64,000 nt of DNA from positions 124,001 to 188,000 of the forward strand of contig NZ_LMTZ01000001.1 in NCBI RefSeq assembly GCF_001456025.1, written 5' to 3'. The notes beneath the pieces are model-generated. The model was not told where the DNA came from, searched no databases, and saw only the letters and a list, made by a program, of their open reading frames with translations. The DNA is from Mastigocoleus testarum BC008. GTDB lineage: Bacteria; Cyanobacteriota; Cyanobacteriia; Cyanobacteriales; Nostocaceae. A program made the translations under genes and the position numbers. This document shows, piece after piece, positions 3,001 through 22,521 of the stretch (the stretch's first letter is position 1; every line of letters begins with the position of its first letter).

Positions 3001-6000
3001 AGAAAGTATACTCTCGGAATCAATACCCCCAGAACTAGAACAGCAATTACCAGTATCTCTGAATTCTCAGACAGTTTCCCAAAAATCAATTTCATTAGAA
3101 ACAGAAACAAACAAAACATTATCCGAGCAAACCCTAGAAAAAATTATGGGACAGCAGTTGCAAGTCATGTCTAAACTCATGTCTGAGCAACTAGAAGTAT
3201 TACGTAAGAGTAATGCGAATGGAGAAAGTACAACTTTTGGGAATGGCTCTTCATCAGCAAAAAAGCAGGGGAATCAAAACCTATCTTCTATTCCCCAGCT
3301 TGAACTTCAATCCACACCACTTAAATCATCATCCTTTTCATCCAGTTCCATTGCACAAAAAAAAACTAGAGAACTAAATCCGCAGCAAAAATATCACTTG
3401 GAAGCCTTAATTACTCGATATACTCAGCGAACTCAAACATCCAAACAACAGACACAAAATTATCGTTCGTACCTCGCAGATAGCAGAGCAGTTGCAGGCT
3501 TCCGACTTAATATTAAGGAAATGTTATATCCCGTCATCGGCAAGCGGGCAAAAGGTTCCAGATTTTGGGATGTGGATAACAATGAATATATTGATATTAC
3601 TATGGGGTTCGGAGTTCTTTTATTTGGTCACGCACCAACCTTTATCACTCAAGCCCTAGAAAACTATATTCAACAAGGTATTCAAATTGGTCCTCAATCA
3701 AGTTTAGCTGGGGAAGTAGCCAAGTTAATCTGCGAACTAACAGGGGTAGAGCGGGTAACTTTCTGTAATACGGGCACAGAAGCAGTGATGACTGCCCTCA
3801 GAATAGCTCGCACGGCAACAGGTCGCAGTAAAGTTGCGATGTTTAGTGGTTCATATCACGGGCATTTTGATGGAGTTTTAGCAACAGCATTACCCAATCA
3901 AATTAAAGCTGTACCAGCAGCAGAAGGTGTATCTGCACATGCAGTGAAAGATATTTTAATACTTGATTACGGAGATCCCAAATCTCTTGAAATTTTGCGA
4001 ACTCACAGTCACGAACTAGCCGCTGTATTAGTAGAACCGGTACAAAGTAGACGCCCCGATTTACAACCCAAAGCTTTTGTCAAACAGTTACGCCAATTAA
4101 CAGCAGAATCTGGAATCGCCCTAATATTTGATGAAGTCCTCACAGGTTTCCGCATTCACCTTGGTGGCGCTCAGAAATGGTTTGACGTGGAAGCAGACTT
4201 GGTTACCTATGGAAAACTTATTGGTGGCGGACTGCCAATCGGCGTTGTTGCCGGTAAAATGGCTTACATGAACTGCATCGATGGTGGCATGTGGAAATAT
4301 GGAGATAGCTCCTATCCCCAGACAGAAAAAACCTTTTTTGCCGGTACCTTTAATAAAAATCATTGGGGAATGGCTGCAGCACTTGCAATTCTGAAGCATT
4401 TGAAACAGCAAGGTCCTACCCTTCAAGAGAAATTAAATCAACAGACATCGCAGATAGTAGAAATCCTAAACAATTACTTTGTAAGCAAAGACGTACCCAT
4501 CAATTTGGTGCATTTTGGTTCATTGTTCCGGTTTAACTCTACGGAAAACCTTGATGTGCTATATTACCACTTACTTGAAAAAGGTATTTATATTTGGGAA
4601 GGGCGTAATTGTTTTCTTTCTAGCGCCCATACACAAGAAGATATTAATTATTTAATTCAAGCTGTTAAAGAAAGTGTCGAAGAACTGCGTAAGAACGGCT
4701 TTTTAATCAAATCTGCTGCGAATAAACCAGCACAGACTCAAAATAATCAATCGATCCAGAACTTGGGGAATAATCAAAATTTATTGCTCCCACCAAAAAT
4801 CCCCAATATTGACAATTCTCAATTAAATACAAACTATTCTCCATCTGTAAAAGATGATTTTTTCCCTAAAAATTCCAGACAACTTAACAGGTTAAATGAA
4901 CTCACAGATAACAATTCTCATTTATTTCCATCACAGATCGGTAATTTTCAGCAGACATTACCCAATTACATTCCCACTCCTGTAGAAGTCAAAAATAATA
5001 TTGAATCAGATTTGATGAAACTGGCTGTGGAGTTGGATTTGGAAAATTATGAGAAAGGATTAGCTGAATTGGAAGCTTTGAGTGTTACTTACATTTTAAG
5101 AGCTTTCCAACAAATGGGATTTGAATTTCAGCTTCATCGTTGTTATTCCAATTCCCTGATTAAGGAACAATTGGGTGCGATCGAGCAACATCAACGTTTA
5201 CTGGATCGTTTATTGCAGATATTAGAAGAAGAAGGCATTCTTACTCGAGCAAATGAACAGTGGGAAGTTGTTCGAGTTCCAGGAATCTTAGATGTACAAA
5301 CTCAAGAACAAGAAATTTTAGCCAAATATCCAGCTATAGAGACGGAGTTGACTTTACTCCAACGCTGTGGGAGAGAATTAGCACAGGTACTACAAGGTAG
5401 ATGCCAACCTTTACAGTTAATATTTCCCAATGGTGATTTAACAATACTGACCAATCTATATCAGCATTCTGCTGTTGCTAAGGTATTAAACACTTCAGCC
5501 CAAAAGACAGTTTCGGCTGCTTTAGAACATTTACCAGATGGGACAAAGGCAAGAATTTTAGAAATTGGTGCTGGGACAGGAGGAACTACCGCTTATATCT
5601 TGCCCCACTTACCATCCGATAAAGTAGAATATGTCTTTACAGATTTATCTCCTACCTTCGCAGGGAAAGCCCGGAGTAAGTTTAGTGATTATCAGTTTGT
5701 AGAATATAAAAGTTTAGATATTGAGCAAGAGCCTGAAAATCAAAAGCTTACTACCGGGAAGTATGACTTAGTTGTTGCAGCCAATGTGCTACACGCCACC
5801 CAAGACTTACGTCAAACCTTAAAACACATTTTGCAGTTGTTGTCTCCAGGAGGTTTATTAGTACTGTTGGAAGAAACAGCACCGCGACGGTGGTTAGATT
5901 TAATCTTTGGTTTAACTGAAGGTTGGTGGAAATTCTCAGATCGTCAACTACGCCCAGGTTACCCACTCTTATCTACAGTCCAATGGCAAGAATTATTACA

Positions 6001-7525
6001 AGAAAGCGGATTTAGAGAAACTGCTATCATTCCTCCCAATCAATCCCAAACAAGCAGTACGCTTCCCAAACATGCAGTTATTGTTGCTCAAGCAGCACAC
6101 AGAATTCCCATCACCGATGCTCAAAAACAACTTTGGGTGCTAGCTCAAATGGGAGATGGAGGATCTGTTAGTTATAACGAATCTATCAAGCTGCAACTAA
6201 AAGGTTTACTAAACATAGATGCAATGATACAAGCAGTGCAAAAAGTAGTAGCACGCCATGAAGCACTGCGAACCGTTATTAGTTGTCAAGGGAATTATCA
6301 GGAAATATACTCATATGTGAGTATCAAAGTTCCATTAGTAGATTTCTCCAGTTTGGAATTCCAGGAGCGACAATCTCAAATAAACCAGTGGATTTCACAA
6401 GAAGCAAGCAAACCTTTTGACCTGACTCAAAAACCTTTGTTACGGGTCTCCATACTCAAATTAGAAGAAAATCTGCATTGGTTAATCTTGACGGCTCACC
6501 ATATTATTGTTGATGGCTGGTCAATTGATATCATTTTGCAAGAACTAGGCACTATTTATTCTGCAGAATGTCAAAAAAGAACCTGTCAACTAGAACCAGC
6601 AAAACAGTTTAGGGATTACGTATTATGGCAAGAATTACAAACTAATAGCCAAAAAATACAGTTAGATGAATTTTACTGGTTAGAACAATTTGCGACTTCG
6701 ATTCCTATTTTAGATTTACCTACAGATTATCCTCGACCTCCAATACAAACTTATGTAGGGGCAGAAGAAAGTATAATTTTTGATTCTTCGACCTACGAGC
6801 AGCTAAGAAGTATGGGCACTCGAAAGGGATGTACCACTTTTATGATTTTGTTGGCTGCATTTAATTTCTTGCTGTATCAATTATCAGGTCAAAAAAATAT
6901 AGTAATTGGAATTTCTGCTGCTGGACAATCTGCTTTAGGTTGGAAGGATTTAGTTGGTTATTGTGTCAATGTTTTGCCATTAAAATGTCAGATTGAAGGT
7001 GAAATATTTACTGAATATTTAGCTAGCATCAAAAATATTTTACTCAATGCCTATGAGCATCAAAACTATCCATTTAGCTTGCTATTAAAGAAACTAGATT
7101 TAAAGCGAGATCCCAGTCGTCCTCCTTTGATTTCAGTTCAATTTAATTTAGAAAAATTTGGTCAACAGCTTAATTTTTCCGATTTAGAAACTAAAGCAAG
7201 TATAAATTCTTTAGATAGTACTCGAAGAGATTTGACTTGGAATATAGCTGAAACAGAAGGAAAACTTCTATTAACCTGTACTTACAATTCAGATTTATTT
7301 CGCCTTCAAACTATTCAAAGCTGGATAAAACAATATGAAATAATTATCCATACAGTTTTGAAAGATTTTGATATTACATTAGAGCAAGTTGGAGAAAAAT
7401 TAACTGATTTTCAAAATCAAAATTACCTTCAACATGCAGAAAAAATGGAGCACAGCACAGTGAAGAAGCTCAAAAAAATTAAACGTAAAGCTTTGGATGT
7501 TATGGATCATGCAACAGATAATTAA
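26..7525 (+). CDS. Hybrid PKS-NRPS: KS-AT-ACP-AMT-MT-C
   Basis: This 2499-residue megasynthase extends a chain with malonyl-CoA, converts the beta-keto group to an amine and passes the product to an NRPS. Visible domains are KS (1-430, ETACSSS with Cys172, EAHGTGT, NIGHLEAAAG), AT (530-830, GHSVGEY with Ser624; HAFH indicates malonyl specificity), ACP (GADSL, Ser944), a GSA-type PLP aminotransferase (1130-1560, Lys1397 in YGKLIGGG), a SAM C-methyltransferase (1650-2010, LEIGAGTGG at 1845) and a condensation domain (2020-2440, HHIIVDG at 2158). There is no KR, DH or TE. The KS-AT-ACP-AMT core resembles mycosubtilin and microginin type synthases that make 3-amino fatty acids. The unusual point is that the MT follows the AMT instead of preceding the ACP. 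An RBS-like AAAGAGGAG lies just before the ATG. A KS at the N-terminus means an upstream acyl donor outside the window. Linkers 960-1120 and 1570-1640 are Ser/Gln/Asn rich. Confidence 0.93.
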   Translation: MESIAIIGLGCRFPDANNPEAFWNLLEKGTDAISEVPPERFDIDRFYDLEQGKPGKMNTRWGGFLRDVDSFDAEFFNISPREAEHMDPQQRLLQEVAWGALEDAGIAPYNLSGTDTGVFIGIGNTDYTRILCKNIDNIDAYNATGGALSIAANRLSYHLNLKGPSIGLETACSSSLVAVHLACQSLRSGESNLVIAGGVNLVLSPDMTVTFSQARMMSPDGRCKTFDASANGYVRGEGCGVIILKRLSDAVKDKNRILALIRGSAINQDGLSNGLTAPNALAQQAVIRKALENAKVEPAQISYIEAHGTGTTLGDPIEIASIKAVLMENRSQEQPCGIGSVKTNIGHLEAAAGIAGIIKVVLSLQHKKIPPHLHLKQLNPYISLEETPMFIPKFQQPWSCQGTRFAGVSGFSFGGTNCHIILQEAPLENQIRASTERPLNVLALSAKTKEALKQLAQKYENFLASNPEVSLADVCFTANVGRSHFTHRLAIVSKSIPQLGQKLKAFTSQQENIDSCKYKTNSRKPPKIAFLFTGQGSQYLGMGSQLYQTQPVFRETIDYCDRILRPYLKIPLLEVLYPEKTENSNFSAINETVYTQPALFAFEYALYQLWKSWGIEPNAAIGHSVGEYVAACIAGVFSLEDGLKLIASRASLMQDLPRNGQMFAVFADEKKIRTVIQAYSQKVSIAAINGPDNIVISGSNQEIKAVVTKFEAEGIKTRALKVSHAFHSPLVELMLDAFEHKASQIEFKTPHLPLVSNVTGKLFSPEEIPDAKYWRNHTREAVRFTVGINTLIEQGYKLFVEIGPKPILCNLGKRYNQDISATWLPSLVEGKDNWQVLLESLSNLYVRGVNVNWQGFEENKLRILLSLPTYPFQRKRYWLKEADYPMNKDIVESKASQQRVNSPRQTTRKDKITSNLLSELAKLLQISPSEIDIYVPFLEMGADSLVLIDVLRVVKNTYGVQIATSQLFEELQTLDTLANYINENLPPEEVEAESILSESIPPELEQQLPVSLNSQTVSQKSISLETETNKTLSEQTLEKIMGQQLQVMSKLMSEQLEVLRKSNANGESTTFGNGSSSAKKQGNQNLSSIPQLELQSTPLKSSSFSSSSIAQKKTRELNPQQKYHLEALITRYTQRTQTSKQQTQNYRSYLADSRAVAGFRLNIKEMLYPVIGKRAKGSRFWDVDNNEYIDITMGFGVLLFGHAPTFITQALENYIQQGIQIGPQSSLAGEVAKLICELTGVERVTFCNTGTEAVMTALRIARTATGRSKVAMFSGSYHGHFDGVLATALPNQIKAVPAAEGVSAHAVKDILILDYGDPKSLEILRTHSHELAAVLVEPVQSRRPDLQPKAFVKQLRQLTAESGIALIFDEVLTGFRIHLGGAQKWFDVEADLVTYGKLIGGGLPIGVVAGKMAYMNCIDGGMWKYGDSSYPQTEKTFFAGTFNKNHWGMAAALAILKHLKQQGPTLQEKLNQQTSQIVEILNNYFVSKDVPINLVHFGSLFRFNSTENLDVLYYHLLEKGIYIWEGRNCFLSSAHTQEDINYLIQAVKESVEELRKNGFLIKSAANKPAQTQNNQSIQNLGNNQNLLLPPKIPNIDNSQLNTNYSPSVKDDFFPKNSRQLNRLNELTDNNSHLFPSQIGNFQQTLPNYIPTPVEVKNNIESDLMKLAVELDLENYEKGLAELEALSVTYILRAFQQMGFEFQLHRCYSNSLIKEQLGAIEQHQRLLDRLLQILEEEGILTRANEQWEVVRVPGILDVQTQEQEILAKYPAIETELTLLQRCGRELAQVLQGRCQPLQLIFPNGDLTILTNLYQHSAVAKVLNTSAQKTVSAALEHLPDGTKARILEIGAGTGGTTAYILPHLPSDKVEYVFTDLSPTFAGKARSKFSDYQFVEYKSLDIEQEPENQKLTTGKYDLVVAANVLHATQDLRQTLKHILQLLSPGGLLVLLEETAPRRWLDLIFGLTEGWWKFSDRQLRPGYPLLSTVQWQELLQESGFRETAIIPPNQSQTSSTLPKHAVIVAQAAHRIPITDAQKQLWVLAQMGDGGSVSYNESIKLQLKGLLNIDAMIQAVQKVVARHEALRTVISCQGNYQEIYSYVSIKVPLVDFSSLEFQERQSQINQWISQEASKPFDLTQKPLLRVSILKLEENLHWLILTAHHIIVDGWSIDIILQELGTIYSAECQKRTCQLEPAKQFRDYVLWQELQTNSQKIQLDEFYWLEQFATSIPILDLPTDYPRPPIQTYVGAEESIIFDSSTYEQLRSMGTRKGCTTFMILLAAFNFLLYQLSGQKNIVIGISAAGQSALGWKDLVGYCVNVLPLKCQIEGEIFTEYLASIKNILLNAYEHQNYPFSLLLKKLDLKRDPSRPPLISVQFNLEKFGQQLNFSDLETKASINSLDSTRRDLTWNIAETEGKLLLTCTYNSDLFRLQTIQSWIKQYEIIIHTVLKDFDITLEQVGEKLTDFQNQNYLQHAEKMEHSTVKKLKKIKRKALDVMDHATDN

Positions 7526-8102
7526 TATCAATGAACGCCTCAAAAAGTATGGTACTGATAAAATATCTCACAGTAAGAGAACTTTTTACGAACACCTAAT
7601 TGCAACTGGTGATTTACTTAAAGAATGGGGATGTGATGAGAATGTATGTTTAGCTGGATATTTTCACTCTTTCTACGGAACTGAAGGGGTTGCAAATACC
7701 TTATATATTTTTAATTTTGCAGACCGGGAGAAACTCCAATATGAGGTTGGAGAAAAGGCAGAATATCTTGTTTTTCTTTACTGTATTGCCAAAAATAGGA
7801 AAGCATACTATGAGAAAATAGAACGCGGAAATGATTTGTACCTCACAAATCGGCTAACTAATGAAAAAATTTTCATTGAAAAACAAGTATTAGTTGATTT
7901 AATTTGTTTAGATATTGCTAATTTCATAGAAGAGTTCGAACGACAACCATTAGTAGACCAACCATTAACCAAATGGATCGCCCCTTTTTGGTTCCGCAAC
8001 TACTATATTAAAAGAAACTATAAGTGGTTGGCTTATGTACCTCATAAAGCACAGGAGATCATAAAAAGTAAGTTTAAAATAGATACATTTTTTTTAATAT
8101 AA
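7497..8102 (+). CDS. DUF6817 (HD-like) protein of the PKS-NRPS cluster
   Basis: This is a 201-residue protein resembling the DUF6817 family, small HD-like proteins often seen next to natural-product genes. The visible signature is HSKRTFYEHL, then a WGCDEN segment and GYFHSFYGTEGV, which gives spaced His residues able to bind a metal as in HD-fold proteins. No reaction is established for the family. The start overlaps the end of the PKS gene by 29 bp, so the two are probably translationally coupled. An in-frame ATG at 7509 is an equally possible start and shortens the overlap. It lies 11 bp before a dioxygenase gene, so it belongs to the biosynthetic operon. A tailoring or housekeeping role for the megasynthase is inference only. 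Confidence 0.75.
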   Translation: MLWIMQQIININERLKKYGTDKISHSKRTFYEHLIATGDLLKEWGCDENVCLAGYFHSFYGTEGVANTLYIFNFADREKLQYEVGEKAEYLVFLYCIAKNRKAYYEKIERGNDLYLTNRLTNEKIFIEKQVLVDLICLDIANFIEEFERQPLVDQPLTKWIAPFWFRNYYIKRNYKWLAYVPHKAQEIIKSKFKIDTFFLI

Positions 8103-8113
8103 AGTGAATAAAA

Positions 8114-9181
8114 ATGAAAAAAAATTACACAGAAGATTTTAGCCAAAAAAAACTAAAAATTACTCGGCGCAAATCTGTAGATTTATCACAAGAGTATGTT
8201 GTTAATATTGGAAATTTACAAAAAAATCAAAACCTACCTTTATTATTAGAACCTAATATAGAAGGTTTAAATTCAATGTCATGGTTCAAGAAAAATAGAG
8301 ATTTTATTAAAGTTAATTTATTAAAGTATGGAGGTATACTATTTCGTAATTTTAATTTCACATCAGTTGCAGAATTTGAGCAGCTTATGAAGGTAATATC
8401 TAATGACATGATGAGATATACTTATCGTTCAACACCTCGCAGTCATGTCAGCGGAAATGTTTATACTTCAACTGAATACCCAGCTTATCAATCAATACCA
8501 TTACACAATGAAATGTCTTACAGCCATAATTGGCCTCTTATAGTTGGTTTTTTTTGTATTCAACCGTCTGAGCAAGGTGGAGAAACACCAATAGCTGATA
8601 GTCGAAGAATTCTCACGAACCTCAACCCTAAAATTGTAGAAAAATTTCGACAAAAGAAAGTCATGTATGTCCGTAATTATCAAGATGGATTAGACTTGAG
8701 TTGGGAAAATGTCTTTCAAACAACAGATAAATCTGAAGTAGAGAATTACTGCAAAAGTTTTGGTATTGATTGTGAATGGAAAAGCAGCAATCACCTCAGA
8801 ACGCGTCAGGTTTGTCAAGCGATCGCAATTCACCCCCAGACAGGTGAAAGTGTGTGGTTCAACCAAGCTCATTTATTTCATGTATCAAGCTTGGAATCGA
8901 GCGTACGCGATTTTTTGTTTGCGAATTTTCAGGAAGAAGATTTTCCTCGTAATTCTTACTATGGTGATGGTTCCCCAATTGAGGAATCTGTATTAGAGGA
9001 AATACATCAAATTTACCACCAGGAAAAAATTATTTTTCCCTGGTGCAAAGGAGATATTTTAATGTTAGATAATATGTTATTTTCACACGGACGCGAGCCA
9101 TTTATAGGTTCAAGAAAAGTTGTTGTAGCTATGGCAGAATCTTTTCATCAACTTAAAACTAGCAATATAAACATCAGCTAA
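8114..9181 (+). CDS. SyrP-like Fe(II)/2-oxoglutarate dioxygenase (TauD family), copy 1
   Basis: This 355-residue TauD/TfdA-superfamily enzyme is closest in layout to SyrP, the stand-alone Asp beta-hydroxylase of syringomycin synthesis. Such enzymes use Fe(II), O2 and 2-oxoglutarate, often acting on an aminoacyl group bound to a carrier protein. The metal triad is visible as His131-x-Glu133 (LHNEMS) and His325 (FSHGREPF), with the 2-oxoglutarate-binding Arg a few residues later (SRKVV). The Glu in place of Asp in HxD/E is usual for SyrP relatives. The gene starts 11 bp after the DUF6817 gene and precedes the NRPS whose A-domain code predicts Asp, which supports Asp as the substrate. A paralogue lies at 23934-24962. 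The exact substrate and stereochemistry are inference. Confidence 0.87.
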   Translation: MKKNYTEDFSQKKLKITRRKSVDLSQEYVVNIGNLQKNQNLPLLLEPNIEGLNSMSWFKKNRDFIKVNLLKYGGILFRNFNFTSVAEFEQLMKVISNDMMRYTYRSTPRSHVSGNVYTSTEYPAYQSIPLHNEMSYSHNWPLIVGFFCIQPSEQGGETPIADSRRILTNLNPKIVEKFRQKKVMYVRNYQDGLDLSWENVFQTTDKSEVENYCKSFGIDCEWKSSNHLRTRQVCQAIAIHPQTGESVWFNQAHLFHVSSLESSVRDFLFANFQEEDFPRNSYYGDGSPIEESVLEEIHQIYHQEKIIFPWCKGDILMLDNMLFSHGREPFIGSRKVVVAMAESFHQLKTSNINIS

Positions 9182-9300
9182 ATAAATATAAATATGATTA
9201 CTCAATGTGCTGAAATTTAGTATTTATGTGTGATTTAATTCTTTAAACAAAAAACAATTTGAAAAATCAATATTTTGTTCTCAGCTTGGAGAAGAACATC

Positions 9301-12300
9301 ATGGAAGGATTTCAACTATCACCTCAACAAAAACATTTGTGGTTATTACAAAAAGAAACTCAAATTAGTTGTTCGTATCGCAGTCAGTGTGCAGTATTAA
9401 TTGAGGGACATATCAATATTGATAATTTAAGACAAGCTTTCAAAACTATTATAGAAAGACACGAAATTCTGCGCACTAACTTATTTTATTCGCCAGAAAT
9501 AATTTTTCCACTTCAAGTTATAAATAAAACATATTTACCTCCAATTTATCAACACGATCTAACTAGTTTGTCCCCAACAGAACGAGAATTAAAAATCAAA
9601 GAAATATTTTGGGAAATTAGTCACTTACCTTTTAACTTAGAACAAGATGAGAATTTGCATATAACTCTAGCAAAGACTTTACCAAAAACCTATGTTTTAA
9701 TCGTCAGTTTACCAGCATTTTGCGCAGATAGTTTCGCATTAGGGAACTTAGTAACTGAATTAATTACTTTCTATACAAACTTCATAACTGCCGAAATTGA
9801 CCAAGACCCAATGCAGTATGCAGATTTTTCCGAATGGCAAAATGATTTACTGCAGTCTGAGGAAACAACCCAGGGAAGAGAATATTGGAGTAAAACAAAT
9901 GTCTCGTCTGCTTATAATTTTAAGCTTCCCTTTGAGTTAAAAAATTCAGACAACCAAGTATTTAAGCCAAAATATATTACCAATTATCTAGAGCAAAATA
10001 TAGTCTTACAACTCAAGGAAATTGCACAAAAATATCATACATCAATATCTACACTTCTTTTAACTTGTTGGTATATTTTACTTTGGAAACTTACAGGTAA
10101 CTCAAATATTATTGTAGGTACTTTATATGACGGTCGTCCATACGAAGAACTTAAACAAGGTTTGGGATTATATGCAAAATATTTACCCAATGATTGCTAT
10201 TTAGAGGCTGAGTTAGAATTTACTGAAATATTAAAACAAATAGATTTATCTGTTGAAGCAAAATATAAACTACAAAATTATTTTAGTTGGGCAGAAGTAG
10301 AATTATCTACAGACAATAAAAAAAATATACCTTTCTGTCAATTTTGTTTTAATTTTGAACAGCAACATATTAAAAAAATTACTGAAAAATTTTCATTGTC
10401 GGTTTATAAACAAATTAGCTATATTGATAAATTCAAAGTCAAACTATCCTGTATTCAGAAAGATAATATTATTGCCCTGGAACTTCACTATGACTCAAAT
10501 ATTTATCGGGAAGAAAATATTAAATATTGGGTCAAACAGTATCAAACTTTATTGAATGGTGTGATTGAAAATATGTCAGTTTCAATTGGAGAACTGGCAA
10601 TTCTTGATACTTCTGAACAGCAACAGCTTTTATGGAAATTTAATAACGATACTGGCAATTACTTCAAAAACCAGTGCATTCATCAACTATTTGAGAAACA
10701 GGTAAAAAACCAACCAGATAACCTCGCAATTGTATTCGAAGAGCAAACATTGACCTATGCTCAATTAAACGCGAGAGCAAACCAATTAGCACGCCATTTA
10801 CAAAAACTCGGCGTTGCACCAGAAGTAATTGTTGGAATTTGCATGGAACGTTCGCTGGAAACGATCGTAGGGATATTAGCCATCCTTAAAGCCGGTGGTG
10901 CTTACGTTCCTCTCGATCCAGCCTTACCAAAATCACGTCTTGCTTGGATTTTAGAAAATACTCAACCATTAGTAATACTTACTGAGCAACAGTCTTTATT
11001 GAGTTTGCCTGAAAGTCAAGCTCGTGTGGTTGATGTCGATCAAGATTGGGATATAGTTGACAGACAAAGTGTTGATAATCTTGGTAGCGAAGTTACACCA
11101 GATAATCTAGTTTATGTTATCTATACTTCTGGCTCTACTGGTAAGCCTAAGGGAGTAGCAGTTGAACATCAGCAATTATTAAATTATGTTTATGGAATCG
11201 TCGAGCGTTTAGATATTCCCCATAATGCTAAATTTGCTTTAGTTTCTACTTTAGCTGCCGATCTTGGTAATACCGTTATATTCCCCTCATTATGTACGGG
11301 TGGGTCTCTTCATATAATTTCCCAAGAACGAGCTACAAATCCAGATGCATTCGCTGACTATTGCTACAGTCATGGTGGTATTGATTATTTGAAAATTGTC
11401 CCGACTCACCTCCGCGCTCTACTAAACTCCTGCAAATACCCAGAGCAAATTTTACCCAAAGGTAGATTGATTTTAGGGGGCGAAGTTTCTGACTGGGGAT
11501 TGATTGACCGAGTACAAACCCTTGCTCCGAATTGTATGATTGTTAATCATTATGGACCAACAGAAGCAACTGTGGGAGTACTCACATACCAGGTAGAACA
11601 AGAAAAATCTGCAGAAATTAATTCAGCTACAGTTCCCCTGGGTCATCCCCTACCAAATACCCAAGTCTTCTTACTTGATTCTAATTTACGACCCGTACCA
11701 ATCGGTGTTGCTGGTGAAATTTACATTGGCGGTGCAAATTTAACCAGAGGATATCTCAATCAACCCAAGTTAACTGCAGCAAGTTTTATTGATAATCCTT
11801 TCCACGATCTATTTCCTCATTCGAAAGCATATTTATACAAAACTGGGGATTTAGCTCGCTATTTACCGGATGGTAAAATCGAATTTCTGGGTCGTATCGA
11901 CCAACAGGTAAAAATTCGCGGTTTCCGCATAGAGTTAGGAGAAATTGAATCAGCACTGCAACAACATCCCAAAGTTGAGGAAGCTGTTGCTAAAGCTTTT
12001 GAAAAGACAACAGATGAACAACGCTTGGTAGTATATTTCGTTCCTGATCGCAAATCAACTCCGCCAAAGATTAGCGAACTGCGTAGTTTTTTACAGGAAC
12101 GACTACCCAACTATATGCTTCCTTCTACTTTTGTGATGCTAAAAGCTTTGCCAATGATGGCAAATGGGAAGCTTGATTGCCAAGCATTACCAAAACCCAA
12201 CATAACAGATTTAGAAACAGAAGAATCTTTTGTCGCCCCCAAGACTCCAGAACAAAAATTGCTAGCTGATATCTGGTGTGAAGTGCTCGGTCAGAAAAAG

Positions 12301-15288
12301 ATAGGAATACATGATAACTTCTTTGAATTAGGTGGAGATTCCATCCTGAGCATTCAAATTGTATCCAAGGCAAACCAAGCAGGACTAAGCCTCAAGCCCA
12401 TGCAACTATTTCAGTATAAAACAATTGCTGAGCTAGGAGCAGTAGCAAGCCAAACTTCCTCTGTTTGTGTAGACCAGGGATTGGTAAAAGGCGCAGTAAA
12501 TTTGACACCTATTCAACGCTGGTTTTTTGAGCAGGATTTTTCTGAGCCTCACCACTGGAATATGTCGATTATGCTGGAAATTTCACAGGTGGTTATGCCA
12601 GATTTACTCGAAAAAGCCATAAACTACTTGCTCGAACACCACGATGTCCTTCGCCTCTACTTTAAGTATCAGGAAATGGCTTGGCAGCCAATGACTGCTG
12701 GTAACAATCTACAAATTCCCATTGATCGCATCGATTTATCATCGCTTCCACAGACCGAGCAAATAAGTGCAATTGAGATAGAAGCATGGCAAATCCAGGC
12801 ATCCCTTGATTTATCAACAGCACCATTAATGAAGGTTGCACTGTTCGATCTTGGCTGCGATCAGGAAAAGCGTTTATTGATAGTAATTCATCATTTGCTC
12901 GTGGATGGAGTCTCCTGGCGCATCTTACTGGAAGACTTACAGAAAGCTTATCAACAGCTTAGTTGTGGTGAAACAATTCAACTTGCCAAGAAAACTACTT
13001 CTTTTAAGTACTGGTCAGAACAATTAAGTAGATATGCCCGATCGCAAAAATTGCAGCAAGAATTGGACTATTGGTTAAATCAAAATAAAACAGCTTTACT
13101 GCCAAAAGACTACTTCGATGGACCTAACACTGTTGACTCTGCCCGAGTAGTTTCTGTATCACTGACCGAACAAGATACCCAAACTCTTTTACAGCAAGTT
13201 CCAGCAGTTTATCACACTCAAATTAATGATTTACTGTTGACTACTTTAGTTCAAACTTTTAGACAGTGGACTGGAGAAAATACTTTATTCATTGAACTAG
13301 AAGGTCACGGAAGAGAACTGCTATTTGATGATGTAGATTTATCGCGTACCATAGGCTGGTTCACTACCCGTTTTCCAGTAGTTCTAAGTTTAAAGGGAAT
13401 TGAAGTAATTGAAGCTAGTGAAGCAACTGAATTCGCAGTGAAATCAATTAAAGAGCAACTACGCAAAATTCCCAATCGAGGTATTGGTTACGGACTATTG
13501 CGTTATATGAGCGAGGATTTAACAAGCATTGAAAAACTCACAGCTATAACTCAACCAGAGATCAGCTTTAACTATTTGGGACAATTCGATCAAGTTTTAT
13601 CAGAATCAGCAATTTTTCGTTTAGCTAAAAATTCAAACAGCACTGAACGGAGTTTAACAGGAAACAGACCTCATTTAATTGCAATTGATGGCATCGTTCT
13701 CGAAGGGAAATTACAACTACATTGGACTTACAGTGAAAATATACATCAAAAGTCTACTATTGAAAATTTAGCTCAGAATTTCATCGCAACACTGAAACAA
13801 ACAATCCACCACTGTCTCGGCACACATGGTGGTTGTGGTTATACACCCTCTGATTTTCCCTTAATTAAGTTAGAACAACAACAAATCGACCTACTGAGTA
13901 ATAAATTCAATAATATAGAGGATATCTACAGTCTTTCACCCATGCAGCAGGGTATGCTCTACCATTGTTTATATACCCCCCGTTCAGGAATATATTGCCA
14001 GCAAAAGATTTTAACCCTCAAGGGTAATTTTCATTTACCATTCCTGGAAAAAGCATGGCAACAGGTATTAAATCGACATCCCAGCTTAAGAACTATTTTC
14101 ATTTGGGAGGGATTAGATGAACCGATCCAAATAGTACTGTCCCAGGTAGAAGTAGCTTGGGAAGTAAAAGACTGGTCTGACTTATCTTCCCAAGAGCGAG
14201 AAGAAAAATTGCAAGCTTATCTGCAAACAGATTTGCAGCGTGGCTTTTCTTTGGAAAAAGCACCTTTGATGCGAGTCACACTTGTTCGCATAAACGCAGA
14301 TACTTACGAATTTATCTGGAGCCACCATCACTTGATACTAGATGGTTGGTGTAATTCAATTATTTTCAAAGAATTTCAAGATTTTTACCAAGCATTACAT
14401 GAAAATCATGATTTACACTTAGAAGATAACGTTCCTTATCGGAATTACATTGGTTGGTTACAAAAACAACACTTGTCCCAATCTGAAACCTTCTGGCGTA
14501 AATGCTTGAAGGGGATAAAAACCACAACTAAATTAGGAATAAGTGAAGCATCTCTTACCTCATTTCCAATAGAGCAAGAACACGGTCATGAAGAAATTCA
14601 ACTGTCAATGGAAACCACTTATGCTCTGCAATCCTTTGCAAAACAGCATCAAATCACTCTCAATACAATTATTCAAGGAGCATGGGCTTTACTTCTCAGT
14701 CGATATAGTGGAGAAGAAGATATTCTTTTTGGAACAATTGTTTCCGGACGTACAGCAGCAGTACCAAGGATTGAATCTATTGTTGGACTATTAATAAATA
14801 TCTTGCCAGTACGAGTACGGGTTAATCCACACATCTCACTAATTAATTGGCTGAATGATTTACAGAAACAGCAGACTGAAATGCTTCAACACGAGTACAC
14901 TCCACTAGTGATGATTCGGGAATGGAGTGAGATACCTCGCGGAACATCTTTATTTGAGAGTTTTATAACTTTTGAAAATTATCCAGTAGATAATTCTTTG
15001 TGGCAAGAAAATAGCATCTGGAAAATTATTAATGTTCGTTCTTGTTCCAGAACTAATTATCCATTAAACCTGAGAGTGGAAATGGGCTCAACATTATCGA
15101 TGCATATGACATATCATACTAATAAATTTGATGTTCCTACTATTCGCAGAATATTAAATCAACTCCAGATTGTATTGGCCAATATCCCAAAAAACCCAAC
15201 AAATTCCCTATTAAGTATTTCCTTAAATCCAGAAACGGAAAATCAACAGTTAATCAATAGTTTCAATGTCGACTTAGATATGATTTAA
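9301..15288 (+). CDS. NRPS: degenerate C-A(Asp)-PCP-E-C
   Basis: This 1995-residue NRPS loads and epimerises one amino acid. ATG 9301 is chosen because GGAGAAG lies six bases upstream; an in-frame TTG at 9259 has no RBS. Domain 1 (1-430) is C-like, but its HHxxxDG is replaced by PAFCADS at 138-144, so normal condensation activity is doubtful. The A domain (440-960) has YTSGSTGKPKG, and lining it up with GrsA gives pocket residues D-L-T-K-I-G-H-V-G plus the A10 Lys, two conservative changes from the Asp code DLTKVGHIGK. The PCP has GGDS (Ser1014), the form usual before E domains. The E domain (1045-1490) has HHLLVDG at 1197, and the final C domain (1525-1960) has HHLILDG at 1676. The last C presumably accepts the residue loaded by the separate A-PCP protein at 16286. 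The degenerate first domain next to an Asp A domain suggests an interface domain. Confidence 0.92.
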   Translation: MEGFQLSPQQKHLWLLQKETQISCSYRSQCAVLIEGHINIDNLRQAFKTIIERHEILRTNLFYSPEIIFPLQVINKTYLPPIYQHDLTSLSPTERELKIKEIFWEISHLPFNLEQDENLHITLAKTLPKTYVLIVSLPAFCADSFALGNLVTELITFYTNFITAEIDQDPMQYADFSEWQNDLLQSEETTQGREYWSKTNVSSAYNFKLPFELKNSDNQVFKPKYITNYLEQNIVLQLKEIAQKYHTSISTLLLTCWYILLWKLTGNSNIIVGTLYDGRPYEELKQGLGLYAKYLPNDCYLEAELEFTEILKQIDLSVEAKYKLQNYFSWAEVELSTDNKKNIPFCQFCFNFEQQHIKKITEKFSLSVYKQISYIDKFKVKLSCIQKDNIIALELHYDSNIYREENIKYWVKQYQTLLNGVIENMSVSIGELAILDTSEQQQLLWKFNNDTGNYFKNQCIHQLFEKQVKNQPDNLAIVFEEQTLTYAQLNARANQLARHLQKLGVAPEVIVGICMERSLETIVGILAILKAGGAYVPLDPALPKSRLAWILENTQPLVILTEQQSLLSLPESQARVVDVDQDWDIVDRQSVDNLGSEVTPDNLVYVIYTSGSTGKPKGVAVEHQQLLNYVYGIVERLDIPHNAKFALVSTLAADLGNTVIFPSLCTGGSLHIISQERATNPDAFADYCYSHGGIDYLKIVPTHLRALLNSCKYPEQILPKGRLILGGEVSDWGLIDRVQTLAPNCMIVNHYGPTEATVGVLTYQVEQEKSAEINSATVPLGHPLPNTQVFLLDSNLRPVPIGVAGEIYIGGANLTRGYLNQPKLTAASFIDNPFHDLFPHSKAYLYKTGDLARYLPDGKIEFLGRIDQQVKIRGFRIELGEIESALQQHPKVEEAVAKAFEKTTDEQRLVVYFVPDRKSTPPKISELRSFLQERLPNYMLPSTFVMLKALPMMANGKLDCQALPKPNITDLETEESFVAPKTPEQKLLADIWCEVLGQKKIGIHDNFFELGGDSILSIQIVSKANQAGLSLKPMQLFQYKTIAELGAVASQTSSVCVDQGLVKGAVNLTPIQRWFFEQDFSEPHHWNMSIMLEISQVVMPDLLEKAINYLLEHHDVLRLYFKYQEMAWQPMTAGNNLQIPIDRIDLSSLPQTEQISAIEIEAWQIQASLDLSTAPLMKVALFDLGCDQEKRLLIVIHHLLVDGVSWRILLEDLQKAYQQLSCGETIQLAKKTTSFKYWSEQLSRYARSQKLQQELDYWLNQNKTALLPKDYFDGPNTVDSARVVSVSLTEQDTQTLLQQVPAVYHTQINDLLLTTLVQTFRQWTGENTLFIELEGHGRELLFDDVDLSRTIGWFTTRFPVVLSLKGIEVIEASEATEFAVKSIKEQLRKIPNRGIGYGLLRYMSEDLTSIEKLTAITQPEISFNYLGQFDQVLSESAIFRLAKNSNSTERSLTGNRPHLIAIDGIVLEGKLQLHWTYSENIHQKSTIENLAQNFIATLKQTIHHCLGTHGGCGYTPSDFPLIKLEQQQIDLLSNKFNNIEDIYSLSPMQQGMLYHCLYTPRSGIYCQQKILTLKGNFHLPFLEKAWQQVLNRHPSLRTIFIWEGLDEPIQIVLSQVEVAWEVKDWSDLSSQEREEKLQAYLQTDLQRGFSLEKAPLMRVTLVRINADTYEFIWSHHHLILDGWCNSIIFKEFQDFYQALHENHDLHLEDNVPYRNYIGWLQKQHLSQSETFWRKCLKGIKTTTKLGISEASLTSFPIEQEHGHEEIQLSMETTYALQSFAKQHQITLNTIIQGAWALLLSRYSGEEDILFGTIVSGRTAAVPRIESIVGLLINILPVRVRVNPHISLINWLNDLQKQQTEMLQHEYTPLVMIREWSEIPRGTSLFESFITFENYPVDNSLWQENSIWKIINVRSCSRTNYPLNLRVEMGSTLSMHMTYHTNKFDVPTIRRILNQLQIVLANIPKNPTNSLLSISLNPETENQQLINSFNVDLDMI

Positions 15289-15539: not shown

Positions 15540-16280
15540 ATGACTCCTCAATATGATTACGAACCTAATATGTTAGGGATTCTAGGTGGCATGGGACCTT
15601 TAGCATCATCAGAATTTCTGAAAACAATTTATGAATATAACCTCTCTAGCAAAAAAGAACAGGATTCACCAAAAGTCATTCTTTATTCCGATCCTACATT
15701 CCCTGATCGCACAGAAGCATTACTCAAACAGGATTACCAACTGTTACTTACTAAATTAATCAAATCTCTATATTATTTATATGAATTAAAAGTTGCAAAA
15801 ATAGTAATATGCTGTATTACATCTCATTATCTATTGCCATATATCCCAGATTATTTAAGTTCTAATATTATCTCCCTAGTAGATATAATTCTCAGCAAAG
15901 TTATAGAGAAACAAAGTAAATATCTATTAATATGTACGAATGGAACCCGTCAGATGAAAATCTTTCAAAATCATCATCTATGGCCATTTGCCAAAGATTA
16001 TATTTTATTTCCCGACCTAGATGGTCAAGACATAATTCATCAAATGATATACAACATTAAAATAAAAGGTGATATTTCAAAAACAATATCTCACTTAGAA
16101 TTATTATTATATCAGTATGAAGTTAATAGTTTAATAGTTGGTTGTACGGAAATTCATCTATTGAACAAATATCTGTACTCATCACATAATAATTGTGATG
16201 ATAGCCCAATGAAAAATCTAGAAAACATTTTTCTAGATCCCTTAATGATTATTGCAAAAGATTTAGTCAAGTTTTTCTAA
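15540..16280 (+). CDS. Aspartate/glutamate racemase family protein
   Basis: This 246-residue protein belongs to the Asp/Glu racemase superfamily, cofactor-independent enzymes that use two cysteines to invert an alpha-carbon. GGMGPLAS lies near the N-terminus, the first Cys region reads CCITSHY and the second VGCTEIHLL. Both Cys positions are kept, but the usual CNTAH of the first site is CITSH here, so the Asn is replaced by Ile. Racemases occur in NRPS clusters such as microcystin, where they supply a D-acid. Here the gene sits between the NRPS carrying an Asp-E module and the A-PCP gene, five bases before the latter, so it is part of the operon. It could supply D-Asp or D-Glu, or act on another acid given the changed motif. 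An ATG a few codons downstream, before LGILGGMG, is an alternative start. Confidence 0.82.
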   Translation: MTPQYDYEPNMLGILGGMGPLASSEFLKTIYEYNLSSKKEQDSPKVILYSDPTFPDRTEALLKQDYQLLLTKLIKSLYYLYELKVAKIVICCITSHYLLPYIPDYLSSNIISLVDIILSKVIEKQSKYLLICTNGTRQMKIFQNHHLWPFAKDYILFPDLDGQDIIHQMIYNIKIKGDISKTISHLELLLYQYEVNSLIVGCTEIHLLNKYLYSSHNNCDDSPMKNLENIFLDPLMIIAKDLVKFF

Positions 16281-16285
16281 TTGCT

Positions 16286-18193
16286 ATGAGAACCTCTCCA
16301 TACATTCAAGTTTTATTCCAACAAACAGCAGAAAAGTTTAGAAGCGAAACAGCTATCATCTTTGGGAATAAACGTCTTACCTACAAAGAAGTTGAAGAAA
16401 AATCTAATCAGTTAGCAAATTTTTTACTTGCTAATGGCGCTACAAAGGGTTCGATTGTAGCTATTTTGTCTAAAAATATTCCTGAAGTTATTATTTCTAT
16501 AATTGGAATTTTAAAGGCTGGTTGTGTCTTCGTCCCACTAGATACCAACTTTCCTGAAAAACGACTAGAGCTAATTATTTCAGAAATTTCTCCCCATTGG
16601 TATATTGCAGACTCAAAATTTCTAAGGACAGTTAATAATATTGCCAAAAAAAATCACATATCTAAACCTAAATTTATTTGTTTAGATGATAATTCTGTTC
16701 TCGATGAATTTCAACATGATGTTCGCATATTAAAGCATTATGCAAAACACAGCAATTGTGAAGCACCAGATGTCAATTTTGACCCAAATGACACGTGCTA
16801 CATATTTTTTACTTCTGGCTCTACTGGTAAACCAAAGGGTATTGTAGGAAGATTAAAAGCAATTGCACATTTCATTAATTGGGAAATCAAAACACTTAAT
16901 GTCACAGAAAAAACTCGGGTTTCTCAATTTGCAACACCTGCTTTTGATGCATTTTTGAAAGATATTTTTGTTCCACTTTGCTCGGGTGGTACAGTCTGTA
17001 TCCCAGAAGATAGAACAATAATTTTTGACGCGAGAAAACTAGTTGATTGGATAGATAGGCAAAAAATAAATATTATTCACATGGTTCCATCTTTATTCCG
17101 CTCAATTCTTAATGAGGATTTGGAACCAAACATATTTGATTCATTGAAGTATGTTGTACTTGCGGGAGAACCTATATTACCCGTAGATGTGATTAAATGG
17201 ACAGACATTTATGGAGAACGGGTTAAGATAGTAAATCTTTATGGTCCATCTGAAACCACATTAACGAAATTCTTTTATTTAATAAAATCTTCAGATAGGG
17301 AGCGGCGCTCTATTCCGATTGGTAAACCGATTGAGGGTTCTGCAGCTTTAGTCTTGGATGAAAACAAGAGAGTTTGTCCTCCCGGTATGGTCGGTGAAAT
17401 TTATATTCGCACGCCATATCGGGCTCTAGAATATTATCACCAGCCCGAACTTACCGATGCAGTCTTTATCCAAAATCCTTTTAACAACAATCCTCATGAT
17501 ATTGTTTACAAAACCGGGGATCTCGGGCGCATCACAGAAGATGGGAATTTTGAATATTTTGGACGAATAGATCGACAAGTCAAGATTAGGGGGATCAGAA
17601 TTGAAGTTACGGAAATCGAAAATTACTTGAGATTCCATCAATCTGTAGGGAATGTAGCAGTTGTAGATCGAGAAGACTCAAATGGTAATAAGTACTTGTG
17701 TGCTTATGTAGTTTTAAATCAAGAAATAGAACTGGATAGCTTACGAAGCTTTTTATCACAATATCTTCCACAATCTATGATGCCTTCAATGTTTATAGCA
17801 TTGGAGAGCTTACCTCGAACGATGAGTGGTAAAGTGGATCGCAAAGCACTACCAGCACCAGAAAAAGCTAAGCAAGAATCTACTCGAAATTTTGTTGCTC
17901 CTCGAACAGAAAATGAGAAAAAGCTAGCACAAATATGGTTACAAATTCTCAAAATCGAGCAGGTAGGGGTAAATGATAATTTCTTCGATCTGGGCGGACA
18001 CTCTTTATTAGCCACGAAATTGATTTCTCGTGCCCGAAAAACTTTTGGGGTAGAATTGCCTTTCAATATTATTTTGGATTCGCCCACCTTGGAGAGTATG
18101 ACCCAAAGCATTGAGACTATTCTTTGGGCAGCAGAAACTTCATCAGGAATGCACAGTTACGCTGGAACTTCATGGGAAAGGGGAGAGTTATGA
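16286..18193 (+). CDS. NRPS A-PCP protein (stand-alone loading didomain)
   Basis: This 635-residue protein has an adenylation domain (1-515, FTSGSTGKPKG, YKTGDLGR, A10 SGKVDRKAL) and a carrier domain (LGGHSLLA, Ser573), with no condensation domain. The C domain ending the protein at 9301-15288 probably serves it in trans. Aligned with GrsA the pocket reads D-A-K-H-V-A-L-L-T plus Lys. I know no matching code. Lys at 239 and His at 278 place positive charge in the pocket, and parts of both published Glu codes (DAKDIGVVDK, DAWHFGGVDK) can be seen, so an acidic or beta-amino acid is possible but unproven. It starts five bases after the racemase gene and its TGA overlaps the next start as ATGA, so it is translationally coupled to the terminal NRPS. 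Confidence 0.9.
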   Translation: MRTSPYIQVLFQQTAEKFRSETAIIFGNKRLTYKEVEEKSNQLANFLLANGATKGSIVAILSKNIPEVIISIIGILKAGCVFVPLDTNFPEKRLELIISEISPHWYIADSKFLRTVNNIAKKNHISKPKFICLDDNSVLDEFQHDVRILKHYAKHSNCEAPDVNFDPNDTCYIFFTSGSTGKPKGIVGRLKAIAHFINWEIKTLNVTEKTRVSQFATPAFDAFLKDIFVPLCSGGTVCIPEDRTIIFDARKLVDWIDRQKINIIHMVPSLFRSILNEDLEPNIFDSLKYVVLAGEPILPVDVIKWTDIYGERVKIVNLYGPSETTLTKFFYLIKSSDRERRSIPIGKPIEGSAALVLDENKRVCPPGMVGEIYIRTPYRALEYYHQPELTDAVFIQNPFNNNPHDIVYKTGDLGRITEDGNFEYFGRIDRQVKIRGIRIEVTEIENYLRFHQSVGNVAVVDREDSNGNKYLCAYVVLNQEIELDSLRSFLSQYLPQSMMPSMFIALESLPRTMSGKVDRKALPAPEKAKQESTRNFVAPRTENEKKLAQIWLQILKIEQVGVNDNFFDLGGHSLLATKLISRARKTFGVELPFNIILDSPTLESMTQSIETILWAAETSSGMHSYAGTSWERGEL

Positions 18194-21100
18194 CAATAGT
18201 TAAGTTTTTGAGTGACCTGCGTGATCTCGATATAAAGCTTTGGATTGAAGGTGATCGCCTTTGTTATAGCGCCCCAGAAGGTGCAGTAACTTTTGAGATT
18301 CGAGGAAAATTATCTCAGCACAAAACAGAAATATTAAAGTTTTTACAGCAGGCGAAATCTGAGATAGATCCCATATGCAAAGATTTTCCCAAGATTTCTC
18401 GAAAGGAAAAACTGCCTTTATCCTTTTCCCAACAACGCCTGTGGTTTCTTGACAGGTTAAATCCTGGGAGCCCTGTATACAACATGTCAGGAGCTCTTCA
18501 AATTAGAGGAATCCTGGATCTGGGTATATTAGAAAAAAGTTTAAACGAAATTATACGACGTCACGAAATTTGGCGCACTAATTTTAGGTTTTTGCAGGGA
18601 GAAGCGACCCAAGTTGTTCGTGCCAACAGAAATTTGAAACTGAAGCTGATAAAATTACAAAAACTTTCTTCAGAAGAACAGCAAGCAGAAGTTATACATC
18701 AGGTAAACAGAGAAGCCCAAAAACCCTTTGATTTAGAAAGGGGATCTTTGCTGCGGGCAACTTTGTGGCAATTAGGAGAAGATAATAACGTACTACTTTT
18801 AAACATGCATCATATCATCTCCGATCTTTGGTCTATGGGAATCTTAGTTCAGGAACTGACCGTACTCTATGATGCTTTTTCCCAGAAAAAACCCTCTCCT
18901 CTTGCTGAATTATCTATTCAGTATGCAGATTACGCCTACTGGCAAAGACAATGGCTTAAAAGCGCAGCTTTTTCCCAAGAATTATCTTACTGGACGAGAA
19001 AGTTGAGTGGCAATTTACCTATATTGCAAATACCAACCGCTCGTCCCCATCCACAACTTCCTACATTTCGAGGTGCAAGGCAATCCATCACATTACCCAA
19101 AATTCTGACTGAAAAACTCAAAGCTTTGAGCCAGAAGCAAGGGGTTACTTTGTTTATGGTAATGTTAGCAGCCTTTAAGACTTTGCTGTACCGTTACACT
19201 CAACAGTCAGATTTACTAGTAGGTACAGCAATTTCTGGGCGTAACCAACCAGAATTTGAAGAAATGATTGGCTGTTTCGTGAATACTCTAGTCATACGTA
19301 CTAATTTGGCAAATAATTCCACTTTTCTGACCTTTTTACAACAGGTACGTGAGGTGGTATTAGAAGCATATGCCCATCAAAACTTTCCTTTTGAGAAGCT
19401 TGTGGAGGAGTTACAACCAGAGCGAGACTTGAGCCAGTCACCACTTTACCAGGTTGGATTTGCTTTTTATAATACCCCCGAGCCAAAATTAAAACTTTCT
19501 GACTTAAACTTGCAGCCAATACCGATAGATAATGGTACGGCTAAACTAGATTTAATGTTGTCTTTAAGGGAAGATGAAGGGGAGTTGACTGGTTGGCTGG
19601 AATATAAAACAGATTTATTTGATTATGCCACAATTACTAGAATGTTGGGGCATTTTCAAACTTTATTAACTGGAATAGTTGACAATCCAGAACAATCCCT
19701 TTCGGAACTACCATTGCTTACAACAGCAGAATACCAACAATTGCTTTGGGATTGGAATAATACTCAAGTAGATTATCCCGATCACGTTTGCGTTCATCAA
19801 ATATTTGAAGCCCAAGTAGAGCAAACACCTAATGCGATCGCGGTTATTTGCGAAGATAAGCAGCTTACTTATCAAGAACTTAACGCCAAAGCCAATCAAC
19901 TAGCCCATCACCTGCAAAAACGGGGAGTAACAACCGGAGAAATTGTGGGACTCTGTGTGGAGACATCTTTGGAGGCGATCGTAGGAATTTTGGGAATTAT
20001 CAAAGCTGGTGGAGCTTATGTACCATTAGATCCGACTTATCCCATAGAACGCTTGGGTTTCATGGTAGAAGATGCCAAAGTTTCAATGCTCCTGACTCAA
20101 AAACATCTAGTTTGTAATTTACCAGATTGGATTCGACAAAACCCTTCAATTCCCAATCCGCAAATTATCAATATTGACAGTGAATGGCAAACGATCGCAA
20201 AAGAAAGCTCAAATAATTTACCTGTTAGAGTAAAACCTGATGATTTAGTTTATGCCATCTACACATCCGGTTCAACTGGCAAACCTAAAGGTGTCCCAAT
20301 CCAACATCGCGGTTTGTGCAATCTTGCTAAAGCCCAAATCCAAGCCTTTGGTGTGGATTCCTGCAGTCGAGTCCTCCAATTCGCTTCTCTTAGTTTTGAC
20401 GCTTCGGTTTCCGAGATTTTTATATCTCTTTTGAAGGGTGCAAGACTTTATCTCACAAAACGCGATCATTTGTTTCCTATTTCTAATTTGATTAAATTTC
20501 TTCGGGAAAAAGCTATTAGTATTATTACTTTACCTCCTTCAGTATTAGCAATTCTTCCCGTTGTAGAACTTCCTGAATTACAAACAATCATTGTTGCAGG
20601 AGAAGCTTGTTCTTCTAAGATTGCAAAAAAATGGGCGGACGGTCGTAAATTCTTCAATGCTTATGGACCCACTGAAGCTACAGTCTGTGCCACCATCGCT
20701 GAATGCAATAAAATTACAGAAAAACTACCCATCGGTCGTCCAATCAATAATACACAAATTTATATTCTTGATCACTATCTTCAACCAGTTCCCATCGGAG
20801 TACCAGGAGAACTATACATTGGTGGTGTAGGAATTGCCCAAGGCTACCTTAATCAACCAGAATTAACTCATAATAAATTTATTTCTCATCTATTTGATGG
20901 ATCGAAGGGAAAACATCTCTCTACTAACAATAAATCTTTCTTGAAATCTTCTCATCTCTACAAAAGTGGAGACTTAGCTCGTTATCTACCCGATGGAAAT
21001 ATTGAATTCCTCGGTCGGATTGATAACCAAGTAAAAATTCGTGGTTTTCGCATCGAAGTTGGGGAAATAGAAGCTGTACTAAATCAACACTCAGAAATTC

Positions 21101-22452: not shown

Positions 22453-22521
22453 TTTTCTAGATTTAGCAATACATATGAAGCTTCCTTGGAGAGGATACAA
22501 TCTAATTCTCAAAAACAAATC

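Follow-up and report, generated by a model that had tools for sequence, protein, structure and literature searches.

The interface type of condensation (C) domain was reportedly defined by Reitz et al. (2019) on proteobacterial domains, which are said to lack the HH motif and to recruit a beta-hydroxylase. Interface (I) domains are treated as a bacterial C-domain subtype tied to siderophore beta-hydroxylases (PMC10212144), and the subtype has been added to antiSMASH 8 (PMC12230676). The closest described cyanobacterial system is that of cyanochelin B in Leptolyngbya sp. NIES-3755 (AP017310.1), a siderophore with two beta-OH-Asp residues that contains D-threo-beta-OH-Asp; CcsK is described as a self-standing beta-hydroxylase and CcsL as an Asp module with an epimerization (E) domain (PMC12628792). 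The gene name CcsK is assigned here to BAU16062 from its position before BAU16061 (CcsL). Cyanobacterial Asp beta-hydroxylases form two clades found through cyanochelin clusters, CyanoBH_Asp1 and CyanoBH_Asp2 (PMC12971057), to which the TauD proteins discussed below are likened by description. Laxaphycin-type hydroxylation was considered as a model and set aside, as in the laxaphycin paper OHAsn is predicted to come from cupin-8 proteins, which make up another system (PMC7524897).

We analyzed a window of 64,000 nucleotides from Mastigocoleus testarum BC008 (NZ_LMTZ01000001.1, positions 124,001 to 188,000), in which a polyketide synthase (PKS) and nonribosomal peptide synthetase (NRPS) cluster includes an NRPS with an unusual first domain (Table 1). 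Literature searches, judged from titles and abstract beginnings, brought up no paper recognised as dealing with this cluster. We interpret the domain as a likely interface domain, predicted to dock the TauD-family dioxygenase encoded just upstream for a predicted beta-hydroxylation of carrier-bound Asp, with a probability of about 0.88 on sequence evidence. Such a pairing with a stand-alone Asp beta-hydroxylase is most likely of a kind already known, best from siderophores. As in the window, a stand-alone TauD gene (CcsK) directly precedes the NRPS gene in Leptolyngbya, and CcsL starts with the same kind of domain (LPSLCAD), followed by an adenylation (A) domain (DLTKIGHVG) and then an E domain. 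The two hydroxylases fall in one clade, with 51.7% identity between them and 33.6% between the interface domains. Unlike cyanochelin B with its two beta-OH-Asp residues, the window has one such module, and no uptake genes were found on its contig.

Table 1. Features of the cluster (positions within the window).
Feature	Position	Strand	Basis or remark
PKS: KS-AT-ACP-aminotransferase-methyltransferase-C	26-7525	+	Pfam
Intact C domain, HHIIVDG, PKS C-terminus	6098-7420	+	Domain extraction and motif; predicted active
DUF6817 protein	7497-8102	+	Pfam
TauD-family dioxygenase, predicted stand-alone Asp beta-hydroxylase partner	8114-9181	+	PF02668, 158 bits; trees
NRPS ORF	9259-15288	+	TTG start; alternative in-frame ATG at 9301, the start used in the original prediction
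Interface-type condensation-family domain, first of the NRPS	9304-10629	+	Pfam, trees, predicted fold
LPAFCAD in place of HHxxxDG	9709-9729	+	Alignments A1 and A2, clade count
Adenylation domain, code DLTKIGHVG, predicted Asp	10690-12177	+	Nine code positions
Carrier (T) domain, GGDS motif	12259-12441	+	Pfam and motif
Epimerization domain, HHLLVDG, predicted active	12490-13830	+	Motif; groups among E domains in tree
Condensation domain, HHLILDG	13921-15252	+	Groups with C domains following E domains
Asp/Glu racemase family protein	15540-16280	+	Pfam
Stand-alone A-T protein, code DAKHVALLT	16286-18193	+	Pfam and code
TubC docking-C-A-T-TE, A code DASTIAAVC	18124-22452	+	Pfam and code
Second TauD protein, unpaired	23934-24962	+	Kin of C-domain-fused hydroxylases
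ABC-transporter ATPase, cluster end	25089-25799	+	Pfam

The order of the parts (C / TauD / I-A-T-E-C), the loss of HHxxxDG, the nine code letters and the TauD iron-binding set are read directly from the sequence. In the mechanism that we propose, the peptide bond to Asp would likely be made by the C domain that ends the PKS, and the interface domain would make none; it would bind the first TauD, which would beta-hydroxylate L-Asp carried on the next T domain, and the E domain would then yield D-threo-beta-hydroxy-Asp, as reported for CcsK/CcsL (PMC12628792). Beta-hydroxy-D-Asp, already proposed in the original prediction, is still the best prediction of the residue, by analogy with this system and given that the E domain keeps HHxxxDG.

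Pfam and domain extraction gave the NRPS the order interface-type domain, A, T, E and C. The first domain comprises the approximately 440 N-terminal residues and matches PF00668 (Condensation, 199 bits). It reads IVSLPAFCADS at the place where neighbouring domains have HHxxxDG in the alignment, so that both catalytic histidines are absent, and its reading frame is open. The Asp of LPAFCAD (domain residue 142) does not vary in alignments of 11 rows (A1) and 49 rows (A2). That the motif is degenerate, that the upstream PKS closes with an intact C domain and that the next A domain carries a near-Asp code had all been noted before, and all three observations hold. The code is taken to be that of Asp, a reading supported by the A domain of CcsL, which has the identical nine letters.

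The predicted fold of the domain (AlphaFold2, 49 sequences) has a mean pLDDT of 89.9, and its best Foldseek matches in the PDB are C-domain structures of NRPSs (6p1j, TM 0.84 by query length). The chains that best fit a profile of 11 interface domains are named bacitracin synthase 3, microcystin synthetase B and Txo1; none of them carries an interface label, and no solved interface-domain structure was recognised. The X domain of glycopeptide NRPSs recruits a tailoring oxygenase. It is represented among the 50 PDB matches listed by 4tx2, from teicoplanin biosynthesis (TM 0.80 to the model), and 4tx3, with OxyB, is by its title a complex of this condensation fold with a tailoring oxygenase. The X domain differs from the window's domain in that its partner is a P450, and the two share 17% identity.

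The cluster as a whole looks like one for a FAAL-primed beta-amino lipopeptide with three amino-acid modules, the order and product being deduced from domain content. The modules would likely supply beta-OH-D-Asp, one residue of unassigned A code (DAKHVALLT) and one aromatic residue, which we take to be the likely meaning of DASTIAAVC. Upstream on the same contig (L001) are ABC, HlyD and FtsX-type transporter genes, FAAL and a PhyH-ACBP-PCP protein. Three WelO5-family proteins lie just upstream of the window (L001:8434-9234, 9457-10281 and 15732-16592); two have HKG, in which the carboxylate is absent and which we take to be halogenase-type, and one has HFE, presumably hydroxylase-type. The lipopeptide is possibly chlorinated.

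Two further genes were observed at the downstream end. About 30 bp after the TE gene, positions 22486-23871 encode a KamA-like radical SAM protein (lysine 2,3-aminomutase family). It was dropped as a cluster marker and left out of the cluster model because the best 120 of 7999 scored kin (self apart) are 62-75% identical, the named ones cyanobacterial, and because none was found in the orthologous stretches searched. Just behind the cluster, a short ORF (26372-26968, true start perhaps further in) matches a Type ISP restriction-modification C-terminal domain and an acyl carrier protein domain.

The original prediction also held that the product might bind metal and be photoreactive, and this part has not been borne out. 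A photoreactive iron siderophore in which beta-OH-Asp is a metal ligand appears unlikely as the product, even though kin of the domain occur in the cyanochelin B system and in a second interface cluster of the same assembly near iron-uptake genes. The latter, on contig C101 (L002/L003), has the order C-TauD, interface (LPSLCAD), A (DLTKIGHI) and T; unlike in the window, its TauD is fused to a C domain, and genes for a TonB receptor, FecCD and a binding protein precede the cluster's first C domain by 4-12 kb and its interface domain by 20-28 kb. As the assembly is listed with 37.5% contamination, C101 may belong to another organism. The eLife metallophore paper does use such hydroxylases as siderophore markers, but it names turnercyclamycin, a beta-OH-Asp lipopeptide, as a non-metallophore false positive (PMC12971057). 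Against a siderophore, moreover, the window has a single interface-Asp module, and profile searches for PF07715, PF00593, PF01032 and PF01497 gave no match on the 312-kb contig that holds it; the original prediction had noted no siderophore receptor in the window. Matches to the uptake families in the assembly (TonB plug and barrel, FecCD, Peripla_BP_2) are on C101 and C166, with FecCD and Peripla_BP_2 also on seven other contigs. Siderophore uptake genes could lie elsewhere in the genome, and the other cluster oxygenases and the A domain with code DAKHVALLT leave room for further Fe(III) ligands. Overall, this is probably not a siderophore cluster, and since the cassette is found here although its contig gave no uptake genes, a hydroxylase and interface pair alone should not be called a siderophore.

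Two dioxygenases had been predicted in the cluster; both are present, but they are not equivalent. The two TauD proteins each keep the HNE/H/R residues of the HxE...H...R iron-binding set. The match of the first ends 132 bp before the interface domain, and in a FastTree phylogeny of 98 TauD domains it falls among mostly stand-alone TauDs that are paired mostly with Asp codes, whereas 23 of the 30 fused C-TauD domains form one group. A more careful tree of 39 chosen rows places it with CcsK in a 21-row clade at 98/92. The second TauD belongs to the fused group yet stands alone, has no interface domain of its own and is 65% identical to the fused TauD of C101.

It appears improbable that a different enzyme, be it the second TauD, DUF6817 or one of the WelO5-like proteins, is recruited by the interface domain instead of or besides the first TauD, and that the Asp is modified differently. 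The second TauD could be the real partner, as its type is usually found as a fusion with C domains that precede interface domains. The DUF6817 gene sits between the PKS and first TauD genes, and it is found just upstream of the TauD gene also in an orthologous cluster of the same order (G004, 44% identity); the protein has three kin besides itself at E<=1e-10. A methyltransferase gene lies beside some related interface domains (L009, L010). By contrast, the first TauD is the immediate neighbour of the domain and is one of the Asp-code-paired hydroxylases, and neither the second TauD nor DUF6817 was found on the 43.8-kb contig (L029, L093 and L094) that carries the orthologous cluster of Aff. 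Roholtiella sp. LEGE 12411, nor was the second TauD found in the 40 kb of G004 searched. Docking of the first TauD is favoured over these partners.

The class of the domain was examined in two trees. The first held 61 C and E domains, drawn from seven plasmid loci, the window and two further contigs of the assembly, with a bootstrap that was not quite settled; in it the domain falls in an 11-row clade at 100/100 that includes CcsL (L007_3883) and stands apart from domains labelled LCL, E and post-E C, labels that were assigned from domain order, with Cy domains not deliberately sampled. The plasmid loci came from a protein search in which the top 11 records have 33-41% identity and the rest of the 40 listed less than 30%. 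A pattern and tblastn scan of genome contigs then gave at least 79 loci, and 387 near-full-length C and E domains were taken from 93 sources. In a FastTree phylogeny, 106 of these form one clade with the window's domain (support 1.0). HH is found in none of the 106 but in 267 of the 281 remaining domains, a pattern by which the degeneracy of the first domain is more than chance. The motif [LIVM][PS][AS]xx[AGS]D occurs in 94 clade members and in none of the 281 others, its closing Asp is D in all 106, and the commonest substitutes for HHxxxDG are PALCAD (24) and PSLCAD (16). This motif offers a clean signature separating interface domains from broken C domains. A C-like domain without HH on contig C58 of the same assembly (L004:7721-9055, FDALIAD) was observed outside the clade on a very long branch.

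That the domain is an ordinary LCL domain, decayed or left over as a duplicate of the PKS C domain and without a present role, is hard to credit: both catalytic histidines are gone and the PKS before it closes with an intact C domain, but both trees speak against this by grouping the domain with others outside the LCL domains (ten of them at 100/100 in the smaller tree), the frame is open, and the same substitute motif across the clade is not expected from independent decay.

The likeness to the subtype of Reitz et al. (2019) is one of description, and the sequence link here runs through the reference points of the clade, namely CcsL, with its characterised product, and a Methylocystis domain that stands in for proteobacterial interface domains. 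Used as a query on the plasmid collection, the Methylocystis domain gave identities of at most 32% among the 30 records listed (self apart), and only AP017310.1 among them is tied to a characterised siderophore. The proposal of an interface domain for a stand-alone Asp beta-hydroxylase is well supported by the trees, the TauD neighbour and the Asp code, and the two contrary outcomes named beforehand, a grouping with LCL domains and an A domain for something other than Asp or Asn, were both absent: the domain lies in a separate clade and the code is that of Asp.

The gene neighbourhood across the clade is consistent with this assignment. Among domains with at least 2.5 kb of sequence upstream, 80 of 99 clade members but only 1 of 241 other C and E domains have a TauD domain that ends less than 600 bp upstream; within 2.5 kb, the counts are 89 of 99 and 1 of 241. 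The loci were chosen by interface domain, not by TauD, but because they include close relatives the counts do not stand for independent events. A DLTK (Asp/Asn) code follows in the next A domain in 70 of the 100 clade members that have an identified A domain, some of their codes being incomplete, and in 2 of 117 others. By code, a TauD lies within 2.5 kb in 43 of 45 Asp, 18 of 19 Asn-type and 14 of 15 DSALIAEVW members of the 99, the last code being presumably that of His. Between TauD and interface domain, L009 (11137-11955) and L010 (11115-11930) have a class I methyltransferase gene; a profile of the two proteins gave 19 matches in a scan of the 93 sources.

For ten of the 99 members, the 2.5 kb upstream hold no TauD, and four of these ten (L033:10001, L043:10001, L056:10001 and L073:10001) precede A codes other than Asp, Asn or DSALIAEVW. 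Codes that we take to be Ser- and Gln-type are found among the TauD-less members. These four are possibly interface domains with another partner enzyme, and such members indicate that an interface domain does not always mean Asp hydroxylation.

We also compared how the parts of these blocks have diverged, using 67 sets with interface domain, TauD, A domain and upstream C domain out of 93 pairs (the others missed a part). Interface and TauD distances are correlated (r=0.63, and 0.62 with the upstream C domain held constant), as are interface and A (0.50) and TauD and A (0.57), whereas the correlations with the upstream C domain are 0.20 for the interface domain and 0.09 for TauD. A Mantel test on 52 stand-alone sets gave 0 of 2000. 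Partner type is clustered on the interface tree, with 12 changes for stand-alone partners versus 35.5 in shuffles. In 26 stand-alone Asp sets, the interface-A correlation (0.73) is as high as that of interface and TauD (0.72). TauD, interface and A domains thus appear to diverge together and the neighbouring C domain much less, a sequence pattern that fits docking. Joint inheritance of the block would give a correlation of the same sign, so the interface-TauD correlation is no proof of contact.

Orthologous clusters allow this block to be compared within one pathway. The PhyH-PCP marker (E<=1e-60) was present in 8 of the 291 genomes sampled from the order, counting that of the window. In the Roholtiella cluster, FAAL, PhyH-PCP, WelO5 protein, racemase, A2-T and PKS are at 58-70% identity to those of the M. 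testarum cluster, and the WelO5 set is likewise two-plus-one (HRG, HRG, HFE). Within the NRPS, T (68%), E (61%) and C (56%) are similarly close, versus 43% for the interface domain and 35-46% for the A core, and the A code is DLYDFSLVW. The Roholtiella TauD falls in another clade and is not sister to the first TauD of the window (AU p = 0.008, for a pair chosen after the first tree had been seen). The two interface domains are sisters with SH-aLRT 96 in a quick tree and 89/83 in the careful tree, where the node is not starred. In G004, the cluster genes, DUF6817 included, are 44-68% identical to those of the window, the interface domain only 34%. Its A domain has an Asp code and its TauD groups with the Asp-type hydroxylases, but some 19 kb separate the TauD gene from the interface NRPS, which is encoded on the opposite strand, an arrangement that counts against the proposed pairing. 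A code and type of hydroxylase therefore differ together in one of three orthologous clusters, that of Roholtiella. This joint difference is one event and could reflect divergence instead of exchange.

We tentatively propose, as a reading that is quite possible, that a beta-hydroxylation cassette of hydroxylase, interface domain and A core, familiar mainly from siderophores, has been built into the cluster of a non-siderophore, possibly chlorinated beta-amino lipopeptide, with hydroxylase and A core exchanged jointly while T, E and C stayed; the Asp pair would be the one present in the window and G004, and Roholtiella would have a different pair. The three orthologous clusters make it possible to test directly whether hydroxylase and A core can be swapped jointly so that a residue of choice is hydroxylated. 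If the cassette reading is true, the interface domain would be a natural swap point that chooses which residue is hydroxylated.
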